Source of the DNA: Rhodococcoides fascians A25f
GTDB lineage: Bacteria; Actinomycetota; Actinomycetes; Mycobacteriales; Mycobacteriaceae
Direction: 5' to 3'
Assembly (NCBI RefSeq): GCF_000760935.2
Contig: NZ_CP049744.1
Coordinates: 248,001-312,000 of the forward strand
Length of the DNA stretch: 64,000 nucleotides
Shown: positions 3,623 through 20,846 of the stretch, one piece after another
Layout of the letters: each line of letters opens with the position of its first letter
Position numbering within the stretch: the first letter of the stretch is position 1
Program-made: the position numbers and the translations under genes
The notes under the pieces: generated by a model
What the model saw: only the letters and a program-made list of their open reading frames with translations
Databases searched by the model: none
What the model was told of the DNA's origin: nothing

Positions 3623-3967
3623 ATGGCTCAGTATTCGATTGTTCTCGACGACGTGTTCCAGGCGCTGGCCGACCCGACCCGCCGGGCCGTGTTGAGCCGG
3701 TTGGGGTCCGGTCCGGCCACGGTGGGCGAACTTGCCGAACCGTTCGACATGACCCTGCCGTCGTTCATGAAACACATTCACCTGCTCGAGCGCAGTGGCT
3801 GGATAAGCACGCGCAAGGTCGGTCGAGTGCGCGCATGCACGATCGAACGAGCCAACTTGGACGTCGCCGGTCACTGGCTACAAGAGCAGCGGGCCGTCTG
3901 GGAATCCCGCACCGATCGCCTCGAACACTTCGTCACCGGCACCTCGAAAGAAAGTGAAGCGCAATGA
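3623..3967 (+). CDS. ArsR-family winged-helix transcriptional regulator
   Basis: A 114-residue regulator with the hallmark ArsR N-terminus (VFQALADPTRRAVLSRL) and a winged helix-turn-helix (ATVGELAEPFDMTLPSFMKHIHLLERSGWI). No metal-binding cysteine pair is seen, so it belongs to the non-metal subgroup usually paired with an AHSA1/SRPBCC protein. The ATG at 3623 is used because it begins the conserved domain. Earlier in-frame codons fall in the dyad-containing promoter region. The gene overlaps the next by ATGA, so both are made together and the regulator probably controls the pair. Confidence 0.88.
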   Translation: MAQYSIVLDDVFQALADPTRRAVLSRLGSGPATVGELAEPFDMTLPSFMKHIHLLERSGWISTRKVGRVRACTIERANLDVAGHWLQEQRAVWESRTDRLEHFVTGTSKESEAQ

Positions 3968-13848: not shown

Positions 13849-14400
13849 CTAGTTGGGTAGCTCGGAATCGAGGCTGGCGGTGAGTTCGCTGAGTTCAGTG
13901 CAAGGGTCGTACGGTACGAGATCGACCAATGCGCTCGTGTTCAGTGTCGTCATGATCAGTTCGGCCCCAACAGTGAAGGCAGCGCCGCAATTGAAGGACG
14001 CGTCGGCACCGACCTGCTGATACTGAGTGGCGTCGCGTGTTCCCACTCGAACGGACCGGAGTCGGTCGAACTTGCTCGGATCGTCGATGTAGTCGATATC
14101 TTCCAATCCGACGAATATCGAGAAGTAGTACTTGCTATCCGATGGCTGGCTCTCCCATCCACAGATCTTGAATCCGTTTTGATCGCGTCCGAACACTCCC
14201 GACTCCTTCGTCTCCACGTTCAATCCCGCTCGCTCGATGGCCTCGTCGGGGATGGAGCAGGGATCCCATGGCGTAGTGGGGGCCGCGACGGTGCTGCTGG
14301 TCTGGACCCCGGGTGACGGCTGCCCTGCAGTGGCACCTGAGCAGCCAGTGAGCAGCACAAGCGCCACTGCTGCCGGTACCGATCGACGTGCTCCACGCAT
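13849..14400 (-). CDS. DUF3558 lipoprotein, module copy 1
   Basis: A 183-residue lipoprotein. The signal peptide ends in the lipobox LLTGC (Cys20), and a Ser/Thr-rich linker follows. The DUF3558 domain begins with TPWDPCSIPDEAIERAGLN and contains paired cysteines (WDPC, KICGWE, FNCG, YDPC). DUF3558 proteins are exported, lipid-anchored proteins of mycolata with unknown function. The start at ATG 14400 gives a standard short n-region with two Arg. The same gene order and spacing recur at 18242-18793. Confidence 0.87.
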   Translation of the reverse strand: MRGARRSVPAAVALVLLTGCSGATAGQPSPGVQTSSTVAAPTTPWDPCSIPDEAIERAGLNVETKESGVFGRDQNGFKICGWESQPSDSKYYFSIFVGLEDIDYIDDPSKFDRLRSVRVGTRDATQYQQVGADASFNCGAAFTVGAELIMTTLNTSALVDLVPYDPCTELSELTASLDSELPN

Positions 14401-14650
14401 TGCCTCACCTGTTCTCGCGAAAGTCCCATCTGCTTGGACGCAGGCCAGCTGTTTTCGGTTCCCGGGACGGGCCAGGTACCAGCTACGCGCCTGATGCTGG
14501 GATTGCCGGTTTATTTCACGATCCGGGGCGTGGATCGAGGGGCCGGCCATCGTAGGCACATCGCTCGTCGCAGTTGGTAGGGCAGACCCCCGAATATTGT
14601 GTAGTGCGTGCGGCACTGTGCCGCGTCGACGAAACAGATTCAATTACTGC

Positions 14651-18241: not shown

Positions 18242-18793
18242 CTAGCTGGGAAATTCGGAATCGAGCTTTGTGACCGTGGAGTTGAGCTCCGTGCACGGGT
18301 CGTACGCCGGTTTGCGGACGAGTGCGCCAGTGATCCAAGTTGCTCTTATCAATTCCGGTCCGGCGGTGAACGCGACACCGCAGTTGCGCGTCGAATCGGC
18401 ATTGACCTGCTGATACTGGATGGCGTTGCGAGTGCCCACTCGAACGGGCTGGAGTCGATCGAAAGTACTCGGTTCGTCGATGTAGTCGATGCTTTCGAGC
18501 CCGACGAAGATCGAGAAGTAGTACACACCGGTTGGTGCCTGGTTCTCCCAACCACAAATCTTGAATCCGTATTGATCGCGTCCGAAGATTCCCGACTCCT
18601 TCGTCTCCACGTTCAATCCCGCTCGCTCGATTGCCTCGTCGGGGATGGTGCAGGGATCCCATGGCGTAGTTGGTGCCGCGACGGTGGTGCTGGTTTCCAC
18701 CCGCGGCGTCGATTCCCCTTCGGTAGTGCTCGAGCAGCCCGCGATCAGCAGAAGTGTCGCCATCATCGGGATCCATCGACGTGCCCTGCGCAT
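18242..18793 (-). CDS. DUF3558 lipoprotein, module copy 2
   Basis: A 183-residue lipoprotein with lipobox LIAGC (Cys20) and the DUF3558 core TPWDPCTIPDEAIERAGLN, VETKESGIFGRDQYGFKICGWE and SIFVGLESIDYID. Length and gene spacing equal those of copy 1 at 13849-14400. The middle of the domain is nearly identical, and the region after about residue 130 has diverged. The two modules lie in the same orientation on either side of the MacB-like transporter genes, so they arose by tandem duplication with intervening sequence or by two insertions. Confidence 0.87.
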   Translation of the reverse strand: MRRARRWIPMMATLLLIAGCSSTTEGESTPRVETSTTVAAPTTPWDPCTIPDEAIERAGLNVETKESGIFGRDQYGFKICGWENQAPTGVYYFSIFVGLESIDYIDEPSTFDRLQPVRVGTRNAIQYQQVNADSTRNCGVAFTAGPELIRATWITGALVRKPAYDPCTELNSTVTKLDSEFPS

Positions 18794-19048
18794 TGCTCTT
18801 GTCCGTTCCTCGAGAACACCTACGTTCTTGGACGCGGCGGGGCTCGTGATGGTTCCACTACCTTCGCTTCGAACCTGGGCGATCAGAATCGCAATCCACC
18901 GGCGGGTAGTCGCGCGCGGTGGACGATAGTGAACCATCAGGTGCGGCCACAGATCTCCGATGTCATGGGCGCACTCGAATCGATCCTTCCGTGACGGTCC
19001 CGCGGGCAACGCGCTGACAGATCGGCGTCGATTTGGCATGGTGGAGGG

Positions 19049-19210
19049 ATGCAGCGGCGCGTGGGCGAGAGTTGGTCCGCGGGACCGGTCTCAGGGGTAA
19101 CCCCTGGGTACATCACGAAAATCGAGCACTGCGTCCGAAGCAGCTCTGCACGCTCCGCGTGCTCGCCTGCTCCGAGGACGAAAGATTTCGGTCGCCCCGC
19201 GTCGTTGCAT
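19049..19210 (+). ncRNA. Candidate retron msr-msd RNA
   Basis: This 162-base segment has the layout of a retron RNA gene. Its ends are complementary over 19 pairs (19049-19068 with 19192-19210), with two G-U pairs and one bulged T, like the a1/a2 arms. Inside are two short hairpins (GGTCC-GCG-GGACC at 19074-19086; CAGGGG-TAA-CCCCTG at 19092-19106), as in msr. After a single-stranded stretch comes a 49-base hairpin at 19132-19180 (CGTCC, AGCAG and GCACGC pairing with GCGTGC, CTGCT and GGACG), resembling msd. The RNA ends 47 bases before a retron-type reverse transcriptase. The branching G cannot be fixed from sequence alone. Confidence 0.72.
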
Positions 19211-19233
19211 GTCACAGCCTTGCATGTCACAGC
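19205..19233 (+). repeat. 14-bp tandem direct repeat at the end of the retron RNA
   Basis: TTGCATGTCACAGC occurs twice (19205-19218 and 19220-19233) with one base between. The first copy supplies the outer part of the a2 arm (TGCAT), and the second could pair with the same a1 bases. This gives two alternative ends to the outer stem. Confidence 0.8.
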
Positions 19234-19257
19234 GCTGCACCCGATCGGTAGCCGCCT

Positions 19258-20520
19258 GTGACCGAACGCGAATTGACCCCACGGGCGGCCGCGACTTTGG
19301 CGCGGTTGGCCGCCGAGGCCGAGTGGACGCGGTCGGGGCTCGAGGTTGCGTTCGCACGTTTCATGCCCGAAAGAGCCTCGTGGCTCGCAGACCGAATCAT
19401 CAATCTGTATTCCAGCCCGCCTTTCGACGAGGCATCGATTTTCGTTCTGCTACGCGATCTTCCGTTCATCCCGGAACCCTCCGTGTCCTCGCAGCGACCG
19501 AAGACGAGCTCCGGCTTCAAGCCCTGGCGATTCGAGGTACCACGGTACGAAACGACCGGTCAGCTTGCACGGTCTCTCGACCTGACGATCTCCGAAATGG
19601 AATGGTTCGCTGACCTGCAGGGCAGGCTACGTACTGCGCCGTTCCCGTTGCAGCACTATCGATCTGCACGACTCGACAAACGTCAGGGCATTCGATTGCT
19701 GGAAGTGCCGAAACCGCGCCTGCGTGAGATACAGCGAAAGATACTGCGCCGCATACTCGATCGAATTCCAGCTCACCCGGCTGCGCACGGGTTCAGGAAG
19801 GCCCGCAGCCCGCGTACCTTCGCGATGCCGCATTCCGAACGCGACGTGGTGATCTCGGTGGATCTCCGACGCTTCTTTCCGTCCATCGGGTTCGATCGCG
19901 TGGTCGCGATCTTCGAGGCGGTCGGTTATCCCAGGAAGGTCGCGGCGAATCTCGCCGCGCTGTGCACCACGGTGACCCCGGCCCGCGAATTGGTCGGCGT
20001 GGACCGTCCCACTTCGGCGCGGCTTCGCGCCACCCACTTGCCGCAGGGCGCGCCCACGTCACCCGCGTTGGCGAATCTGGCTGCGCGACAGCTCGATATC
20101 CGGGCCGCAGGCCTGGCCCGGTCCGTCGGCGCTCGCTACAGCCGATACGCCGACGATCTGGCGTTCTCCGGTGGTGCAGACATCGACGTGGACAGACTGC
20201 TGTGGCTGATTTCGCAGATTGCACACGACGAAGGCTTCACGATTCATCCCGACAAGACCAGGGTTCGACGCGCTCATCAGCGACAACAGCTGACCGGGCT
20301 CGTCGTCAACTCGTGGCCGGCAGTACCCCGAGAGGAATACGACAATCTCAGGGCACTGCTGCACAACTGCATCAGCACCGGACCAGCTGAGCAGAACCTG
20401 CATGACCACAACGACTTTCGAGCACACGTCTACGGACGTATCGCCCGGATCGGCGAGACGAACGAGACGCGTCGCGCAAAGTTATTATCCATGGCGTCTG
20501 GGGTCCGATGGTTCGAGTAG
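19258..20520 (+). CDS. Retron-type reverse transcriptase
   Basis: A 420-residue RNA-directed DNA polymerase. About 110 N-terminal residues of unknown role precede the RT domain. RT motifs are visible in order: EVPKPRLREIQRKIL and AAHGFRKARS (RT1-2), VVISVDLRRFFPSIGFDRV with Asp202 (RT3), LPQGAPTSPALANL at 262-275 (RT4), RYADDLAFSG with Asp299/Asp300 (RT5), and GFTIHPDKT (RT6). LTGLVVN at 345-351 is the place of the retron VTG motif. There is no maturase or HNH domain, which argues against a group II intron. It starts with GTG at 19258, just after the structured RNA, so both are probably on one transcript. Confidence 0.9.
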   Translation: MTERELTPRAAATLARLAAEAEWTRSGLEVAFARFMPERASWLADRIINLYSSPPFDEASIFVLLRDLPFIPEPSVSSQRPKTSSGFKPWRFEVPRYETTGQLARSLDLTISEMEWFADLQGRLRTAPFPLQHYRSARLDKRQGIRLLEVPKPRLREIQRKILRRILDRIPAHPAAHGFRKARSPRTFAMPHSERDVVISVDLRRFFPSIGFDRVVAIFEAVGYPRKVAANLAALCTTVTPARELVGVDRPTSARLRATHLPQGAPTSPALANLAARQLDIRAAGLARSVGARYSRYADDLAFSGGADIDVDRLLWLISQIAHDEGFTIHPDKTRVRRAHQRQQLTGLVVNSWPAVPREEYDNLRALLHNCISTGPAEQNLHDHNDFRAHVYGRIARIGETNETRRAKLLSMASGVRWFE

Positions 20521-20570
20521 CGCGAATGGGGTAGGCGACTCCGAACCACTCATTCCTCCGAGGAGCCGCT

Positions 20571-20846
20571 ATGAACGACCTGACCTTCACCATCGGACGC
20601 GAGGAGTTGGTGATCCGTCAGCGATGGGAAGTAGTCAGCATCATCAACGACATCCTCGTTGCGGTCTGGTTCATCATCGGCAGCATCCTGTTCTTCCACG
20701 AGAGCACCACCGTGGCCGGCACGTGGTTGTTCCTCCTCGGAAGTATCGAACTGCTCATCCGGCCGATGATCCGCCTCGCCCGGCGCGTGCATCTCACCAG
20801 GATCGGGCGCGGCCAGTCGGCCGCGGACAGCGACGAGGACTACTGA
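20571..20846 (+). CDS. YrhK-like membrane protein with two helices
   Basis: A 91-residue protein with a YrhK-type domain: IRQRWEVVSIINDILVAVWFIIGSILFF, then WLFLLGSIELLIRPMIRLARR. The two hydrophobic stretches form a helical hairpin, with a charged acidic tail. A clear GAGGAG box precedes the ATG. It begins 50 bases after the reverse transcriptase stop on the same strand. YrhK-like proteins are widespread and of unknown function, so it may be unrelated. However, some retrons use small two-helix membrane proteins as effectors, and this gene is in the right place. Confidence 0.8.
   Translation: MNDLTFTIGREELVIRQRWEVVSIINDILVAVWFIIGSILFFHESTTVAGTWLFLLGSIELLIRPMIRLARRVHLTRIGRGQSAADSDEDY

Follow-up and report, generated by a model that had tools for sequence, protein, structure and literature searches.

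We have identified a retron of an untyped family in Rhodococcoides fascians A25f, at positions 19049 to 20520 of the window, by which we mean the whole 64,000-nucleotide stretch analyzed here (contig NZ_CP049744.1, positions 248,001 to 312,000, forward strand). A structured RNA precedes a reverse transcriptase (RT) gene. On sequence grounds the locus is a retron that stands beside but outside type XIII, because the structure and covariation of the RNA, the placement of the RT and the fit of the RT to untyped PADLOC models all lead there ("type XIII", "other" and "outgroup" are used as PADLOC labels only). We consider it quite probable that this retron is solitary, most likely without a toxin encoded in cis, since no constant partner gene was found in any lineage and the element follows the species that carry it. 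A preliminary description of the window had proposed a retron, an identity on which RNA layout and RT placement agree. The features of the locus are listed below.

19014-19042, + strand: promoter-like site (CTGACA, 17 nt, CATGGT); pattern match, with the hexamer kept across loci
19049-19210, + strand: retron RNA from a1 to a2, 162 nt; fold and comparison
19049-19068, + strand: a1, the 5' arm of the closing stem; fold and covariation
19069, + strand: predicted priming (branch) guanosine; kept as G in 44 of 46 aligned RNAs, chemistry presumed
19072-19088, + strand: msr hairpin 1; helix 3, 95.3% of cells paired, both-side changes in 3 of 6 pairs
19090-19108, + strand: msr hairpin 2 (CTCAGGGG-UAA-CCCCUGGG); helix 4, 100% paired, recovered again in 26 non-actinobacterial RNAs
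19115-19191, + strand: presumed cDNA template, from retron biochemistry, with a provisional 5' limit
19136-19174, + strand: msd hairpin, conserved core; helices 5 and 6, 97.8% and 100% paired, recovered again in the 26 non-actinobacterial RNAs
19192-19210, + strand: a2, the 3' arm of the closing stem; fold and covariation
19258-20520, + strand: retron-type RT, 420 aa, GTG start, YADD; open reading frame (ORF), Pfam, PADLOC, PDB matches and model

The preliminary description had seen paired ends, two short hairpins and one long hairpin in 19049-19210, and both fold and covariation substantiate them. The stretch has a minimum free energy of -90.2 kcal/mol, against -72.3 +/- 4.25 kcal/mol for shuffled versions (z = -4.2; 0 of 200 equally stable). 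Thirty-two RNAs that precede homologous RTs, drawn from 44 in which a simple motif search had found both ends, were aligned and gave a consensus structure of 41 pairs, 21 of them with changes on both sides. Paired cells amounted to 96.3%, compared with 85.9% after shuffling and 34.8-43.4% when the partner was slid by one to three columns; as the homologues keep so much more pairing than the slid controls, chance pairing was dismissed.

A covariance model built from these 32 RNAs (R1) found the full RNA ahead of the RT in 69 of the 70 loci from relatives, including 37 of the 38 that lay outside the model. The sole miss was L034, in genome G020, where some 10.5 kb separate the RNA from a truncated RT; in this region (L246, C69:114000-130000) genes for a major facilitator superfamily transporter, a flavin adenine dinucleotide (FAD) oxidase, a peptidase and other proteins stand between the two. 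A second covariance model was made from 46 RNAs in an alignment fitted to the structure, in which 38 of the 41 pairs show both-side changes across phyla. It matched 78 of 80 loci from seven phyla and 48 of the 50 loci with identifiers outside the model, some of the 50 being kin of model rows or from the same record. In the two missed loci, the RNA elements were recognizable by eye (L106) or the upstream part ran past the contig end (L124, RT match from base 153, query residue 101). The model had no match at E <= 1 in the 86 control loci, which carry other retron-type RTs, namely 80 viral-contig RT loci and six loci (five genes) with other myxobacterial RTs. The covariance search suggested in the preliminary description thus found the RNA, with its paired ends and long hairpin, ahead of homologous RT genes and not in the controls. 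RNAalifold, applied to a plain MAFFT alignment of 26 non-actinobacterial RNA stretches picked by R1, again yielded msr hairpin 2 and the msd hairpin, with both-side changes at 14 of 21 pairs, and did not recover the closing stem.

Further features of the RNA fit a retron. In 44 of the 46 RNAs a G follows directly on the a1 stem, most commonly in the contexts AGA (18) and AGC (15). Retrons are described as having their priming guanosine where a1 ends on its inner side, within an AGC-like context (PMC6868368), and the G found here is in line with that rule as regards position. Hairpin 2 is separated from a2 by 75-91 nt (median 80) in the same RNAs. The presumed cDNA did not fold as DNA more stably than shuffled sequences (z = -0.96), so the case rests on the RNA. 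None of the 4227 Rfam 15 models matched the RNA at its gathering score, and the window held three sub-threshold matches at E <= 10. Three congeners (L006, L007 and L012) have an insertion of about 33 nt between the two msr hairpins.

Transcription of the RNA probably starts at a1 from a promoter of its own, as a [CT]ANNNT hexamer begins 13-20 nt upstream of a1 in 57 of 69 loci (mean after shuffling 10.3, maximum 19). In the window this hexamer is CATGGT at 19037-19042, 17 nt after CTGACA. The combined pattern has one match in the window and at least one match in 27 of 100 shuffled windows, so it is weak alone, and a generic sigma-70 scan called no site at this promoter.

RVT_1 was the only Pfam domain in the RT, and Pfam detected no maturase domain; the earlier account of an RT with YADD and LTG motifs and without a maturase domain held. 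PADLOC scored the protein at 575 bits with RT_other, 551 bits with RT_outgroup and 320 bits with RT_XIII. The first two hidden Markov models span residues 3-418 and 10-418, respectively, and RT_other or RT_outgroup was the best fit in all five family members tested (from Burkholderia, a planctomycete, Nocardioides, Amycolatopsis and Myxococcus). The group II intron model TIGR04416 gave 59 bits against a cut-off of 300. Retron RTs were the best phmmer matches in the PDB, with the Ec86 RT first (E = 1.4e-32). Ec86 was also the top fold match in Foldseek, where the first 18 PDB matches were retron RTs and group II introns came after; root-mean-square deviations were large and TM-scores about 0.5 or less by query length, and only the ranking is used. 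A quick IQ-TREE phylogeny had 93 rows (62 of this family, 3 myxobacterial type XIII RTs and 28 of 67 distinct viral-contig RTs), with no group II intron rows and with many long branches flagged in its viral part. In it the family formed one side of a branch with an SH-aLRT support of 99, beside type XIII, and Burkholderiaceae, Oxalobacteraceae, Myxococcota and actinobacterial families were grouped largely by taxonomy. PADLOC, phmmer, the tree and Foldseek thus all place the RT among retron RTs, and the RT passes the phylogenetic check that the preliminary description had proposed. The catalytic residues Y297, D299 and D300 of YADD were invariant in 25 RTs.

A scan of GTDB species genomes found at least 577 relatives of the RT. 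By record title, the best 80 of these came from Actinomycetota (33), Pseudomonadota (22), Planctomycetota (9), Acidobacteriota (8), Myxococcota (6), Gemmatimonadota (1) and Verrucomicrobiota (1). Among 201 whole genomes, R1 found the RNA in at least 66, a lower bound given the strict filters of the scan, with one copy per genome. All 66 also hold an RT match, and the RNA adjoins the RT in each except G020. RT matches occurred in 89 of the 201 genomes, a count that includes weak or fragmentary matches and other kinds of RT. Within the genus, the genome of the window included, 33 of 37 genomes had an RT match and 32 had the RNA. R. erythropolis, named so in the source records, carries an RT 55-56% identical to that of the window. 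Relatives in phage records were at most 32% identical among the 20 matches listed, and those on viral contigs at most 39% (37% for the top-scoring one). In Myxococcus qinghaiensis (G201, the genome of L128) the retron-type RT genes number at least four, of which three fit type XIII and one belongs to the window family. The locus L076, recorded under "Kitasatospora arboriphila", closely matches one from Williamsia (99.6% identity in DnaE2) and probably comes from a contaminated or misnamed assembly.

Identity of the RT to that of the window tracked RpoB identity, with a Spearman coefficient of 0.91 over 66 genomes, 0.91 within the genus (28 genomes) and 0.72 outside it (38 genomes); this set excludes fragments, weak non-family matches and genomes with no recorded RpoB row, and RT coverage varies in it. 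Among 14 close loci (91 pairs) the median ratio of nonsynonymous to synonymous substitution rates (dN/dS) was 0.099 (0.060-0.160). In eight loci the identity of the RNA to that of the window was 0.69-0.92, against 0.29-0.45 for the 200 bp upstream. Sites are shared within lineages, and tree clades largely follow taxonomy. Judged from these comparisons, RNA and RT are inherited together and held by selection. Genome G031 (L259, C30:11000-18500) retains two short RT pieces at about 3772-3949 between flanks common to L015 and L016, which we read as a secondary loss of the retron, and G003 and G020 seem to carry broken RT copies. Most known retron defence systems hop between species. The present retron, unlike such mobile defence cassettes, appears to be vertically inherited.

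Neighboring genes were clustered for 150 loci with flanks of about 1.5-8 kb. In this set no neighbor held a constant place beyond lineage synteny, and no linked or fused effector was found. In the window clade the conserved neighbors are a DUF3558 lipoprotein gene and an alpha-galactosidase gene; other Rhodococcus have an XRE-type regulator upstream, and a third group has thiolase and VanW genes. Two DUF3558-type lipoprotein-like genes, at 13849-14643 and 18242-19039, frame an ABC transporter upstream of the retron in the window; their likeness was judged by eye, and Pfam scored the second one only. In Williamsia, Gordonia, Amycolatopsis, Kibdelosporangium, Kutzneria and further relatives the neighbors include dnaE2 (20 loci), a SpoU methylase gene (11 loci) and folD (10 loci, one of them the planctomycete L137). 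The error-prone polymerase of SOS mutagenesis is encoded by dnaE2. Of the 150 loci, 20 have this gene no more than about 8 kb upstream, all of them from Mycobacteriales or Pseudonocardiaceae (L076 included as Williamsia-like). The retron stands directly behind dnaE2 in several Mycobacteriales genera, with 11-26 nt from stop codon to a1 in four loci. In three of these closest loci (L039, L045 and L047, not L040) a -10-like hexamer precedes a1 by eye, and for this reason the adjacency may be a matter of history alone.

Downstream of the retron lies a gene for a YrhK-like small protein (20571-20846; ORF and Pfam). The preliminary description had extended the locus to 20846, which is the end of this separate gene; the 3' boundary of the retron is the RT stop codon at 20520. 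As an effector candidate the YrhK-like gene was rejected, and we place it outside the system, because it follows the RT in just 7 of 70 relatives' loci, all of the window clade, and is missing in 6 of 11 loci with the alpha-galactosidase neighbor. Same-strand genes directly downstream in 10 loci of different lineages encode differing, ordinary proteins in the 8 cases that Pfam named (a FecR-like protein, two pyridoxal phosphate (PLP) decarboxylases, a subtilase, a GFO/IDH oxidoreductase, an M28 peptidase, a phosphoglucomutase and a flavin monooxygenase); the other two had no Pfam match. PADLOC named the subtilase only among these 10, via a generic model. One gene cluster, with members in 10 loci of Pseudonocardiaceae (L080, L082, L097, L119 and others), lies downstream, mostly on the opposite strand, and its L080 member has a TNT domain. 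This TNT-domain gene was rejected as a partner, being confined to Pseudonocardiaceae and on the opposite strand.

Several points weigh against a solitary retron of an untyped family. The NCBIfam retron models stayed below cut-off (best 160 of 235 bits). Two retron motifs are present only as variants: NAXXH of region X, which the window RT has as FAMPH (with A and H retained and another residue for N), and VTG of region Y, which is LTG in the window and LAG, VAG or others in relatives. Ec48 and Mx65 likewise have no N in NAXXH (PMC6868368), and isoleucine or leucine stands at the first VTG position in 26% of retron-like RTs (PMC4244168). The family is patchy at phylum scale, with 4 of 396 Actinomycetota genomes positive at E <= 1e-40. 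A few relatives are on plasmids, as expected of defence systems, the best from Tsukamurella (52.5% identical), Dietzia (50%) and Burkholderia (48%). The RpoB correlation is built on distances to one reference. The retron site varies within the genus, with at least three neighborhoods, and broken or lost copies exist, so the retron is dispensable. Of 88 neighbor clusters with at least two loci within 3 kb of the RT, 15 reach two or three phyla, and not all of these are identified; most have one locus per further phylum, with sides and strands that vary, and the largest (seven loci, three phyla) occurs on both sides and both strands. The sole close-downstream pair at the same place in two phyla encodes a PLP-dependent decarboxylase, at L090:9386-10849 in Nocardioides and L113:9197-11047 in Burkholderia, on the same strand as the RT, which may be coincidence. 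Finally, a solitary locus is compatible with a partner encoded elsewhere in the genome.

Under the solitary reading, and by analogy with the biochemistry of retrons, the RT would bind the retron RNA and use the 2'-OH of G19069 as primer. Reverse transcription would begin at G19191 and run upwards through the msd hairpin to give a DNA of about 60-80 nt, and the resulting branched RNA-DNA molecule (msDNA) would stay bound to the RT. The RT-msDNA particle would then most likely act with no toxin encoded in cis. That it has a cellular role we put at a little short of even.

Such a particle could serve a partner whose gene lies elsewhere in the genome, as its sensor or its antitoxin, a possibility to be taken seriously without being favored. 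Its most specific form, possible to a similar degree, is a tripartite anti-phage retron in which RT-msDNA restrains a distant toxin and frees it on infection. Toxin restraint has been reported for other retrons (PMC12548924, PMC8867640), and the patchiness at phylum scale and the plasmid-borne relatives would suit such a system. Near fixation in the genus (RT matches in 33 of 37 genomes) and an RT that tracks RpoB speak against it, as does the neighborhood: there is no constant neighbor, and for the nine neighbor ORFs tested in the window PADLOC gave generic cross-hits only, to an ABC-transporter ATPase (best mad3, 107 bits) and a permease, both so judged by eye. The anti-phage role that the preliminary description implied finds no support in these results, with no constant neighbor, cross-hits alone and descent that looks vertical. 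More generally, the finding of no constant linked gene, together with descent that appears vertical and a retron close to fixation in the genus, speaks against an ordinary mobile defence cassette.

Rather doubtfully, the phylum-spanning family could instead be made up of resident cellular genes, with RT and msDNA in a housekeeping role, perhaps in the DNA-damage response, as the adjacency of dnaE2 might hint.

A one-gene retron, in which an N-terminal domain of the RT serves as effector or output, is improbable. The AlphaFold2 model (25 sequences; mean predicted local distance difference test, pLDDT, 88.6; predicted TM-score, pTM, 0.66) has a four-helix N-terminal domain (residues 8-66, approximately) and a loose linker (72-86) before the RT proper. 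A separate domain modelled with confidence on a loose linker, and recognizable in Myxococcota and Nocardioides members, would suit an effector. The domain has no fold or sequence relative worth naming, its best PDB match being a designed repeat protein; it is weak in Burkholderia L099 and was not recognized in L107, L096 and L115. In Amycolatopsis L057-L059 the open frame begins 200-225 nt past the equivalent of residue 1, so that it has no such domain, and the RNA occupies that stretch.

It is a little less probable again that the locus is a selfish or neutral retroelement with no host function. Several broken copies and a site that shifts within the genus would suit this; dN/dS of about 0.10, RNA pairs kept by compensation and one RNA copy per genome in 66 of 66 genomes oppose it. 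That the RT belongs to a group II intron, a diversity-generating retroelement or a defence-associated RT (DRT) system is very unlikely, for the weak matches to TIGR04416 (59 bits) and to the Drt2 and Drt3a models are exceeded by the retron models (160 bits), the RNA layout is specific to retrons and retron RTs lead all structure matches.

We therefore return to a solitary retron of an untyped family and compare it with known systems. RT_XIII is the nearest typed RT model in PADLOC (320 bits) and the neighboring branch in the tree. The window RT differs from it in scoring 575 and 551 bits on RT_other and RT_outgroup, and the RNA model of the window family finds nothing at the six myxobacterial loci L237-L242 (five genes). 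RT_XIII takes Myxococcus L240 (485 aa), L238 (426 aa) and L241, whose genome also holds a member of the window family (L231); by RT length we take L240 and L238 to be Mx162- and Mx65-like. The PADLOC classes RT_other and RT_outgroup are labels with no type, effector or function attached, and source annotations give the RT a name such as "reverse transcriptase family protein". RT surveys have very likely come across the clade itself already. In the literature searched we recognized no description of an RNA for RT_other or RT_outgroup, or of the window RNA. PADLOC has msr-msd covariance models of its own (PMC9252829), and putative retrons in Actinobacteria have been mentioned before, the R. ruber Chol-4 genome paper being one source (PMC6868368).

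To our knowledge, retrons with an established role are phage defences linked to a toxin. Some retrons have no linked effector and perhaps serve other cellular roles (PMC8867640). The window family offers one well-defined RNA, recognizable across seven phyla, in an element nearly fixed in a culturable genus, which makes the role of solitary retrons testable and the locus a good place to ask what they are for. Its RNA model could also be used to annotate RTs now labelled only "other".

Ec86 (Eco1) is the closest PDB match by sequence and fold. It has the same order of a1, msr, msd, a2 and RT. Ec86 has an effector (title of 7v9x), whereas the window family has no constant partner gene. Vertical inheritance has been reported for myxobacterial retrons, with msDNA in 27 of 28 strains (PMC6868368, citing Rice and Lampson 1995). 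The window family resembles these in being very common in one clade and differs from them in RT family and in RNA, and it is found mainly in Actinomycetota, with members in six further phyla.

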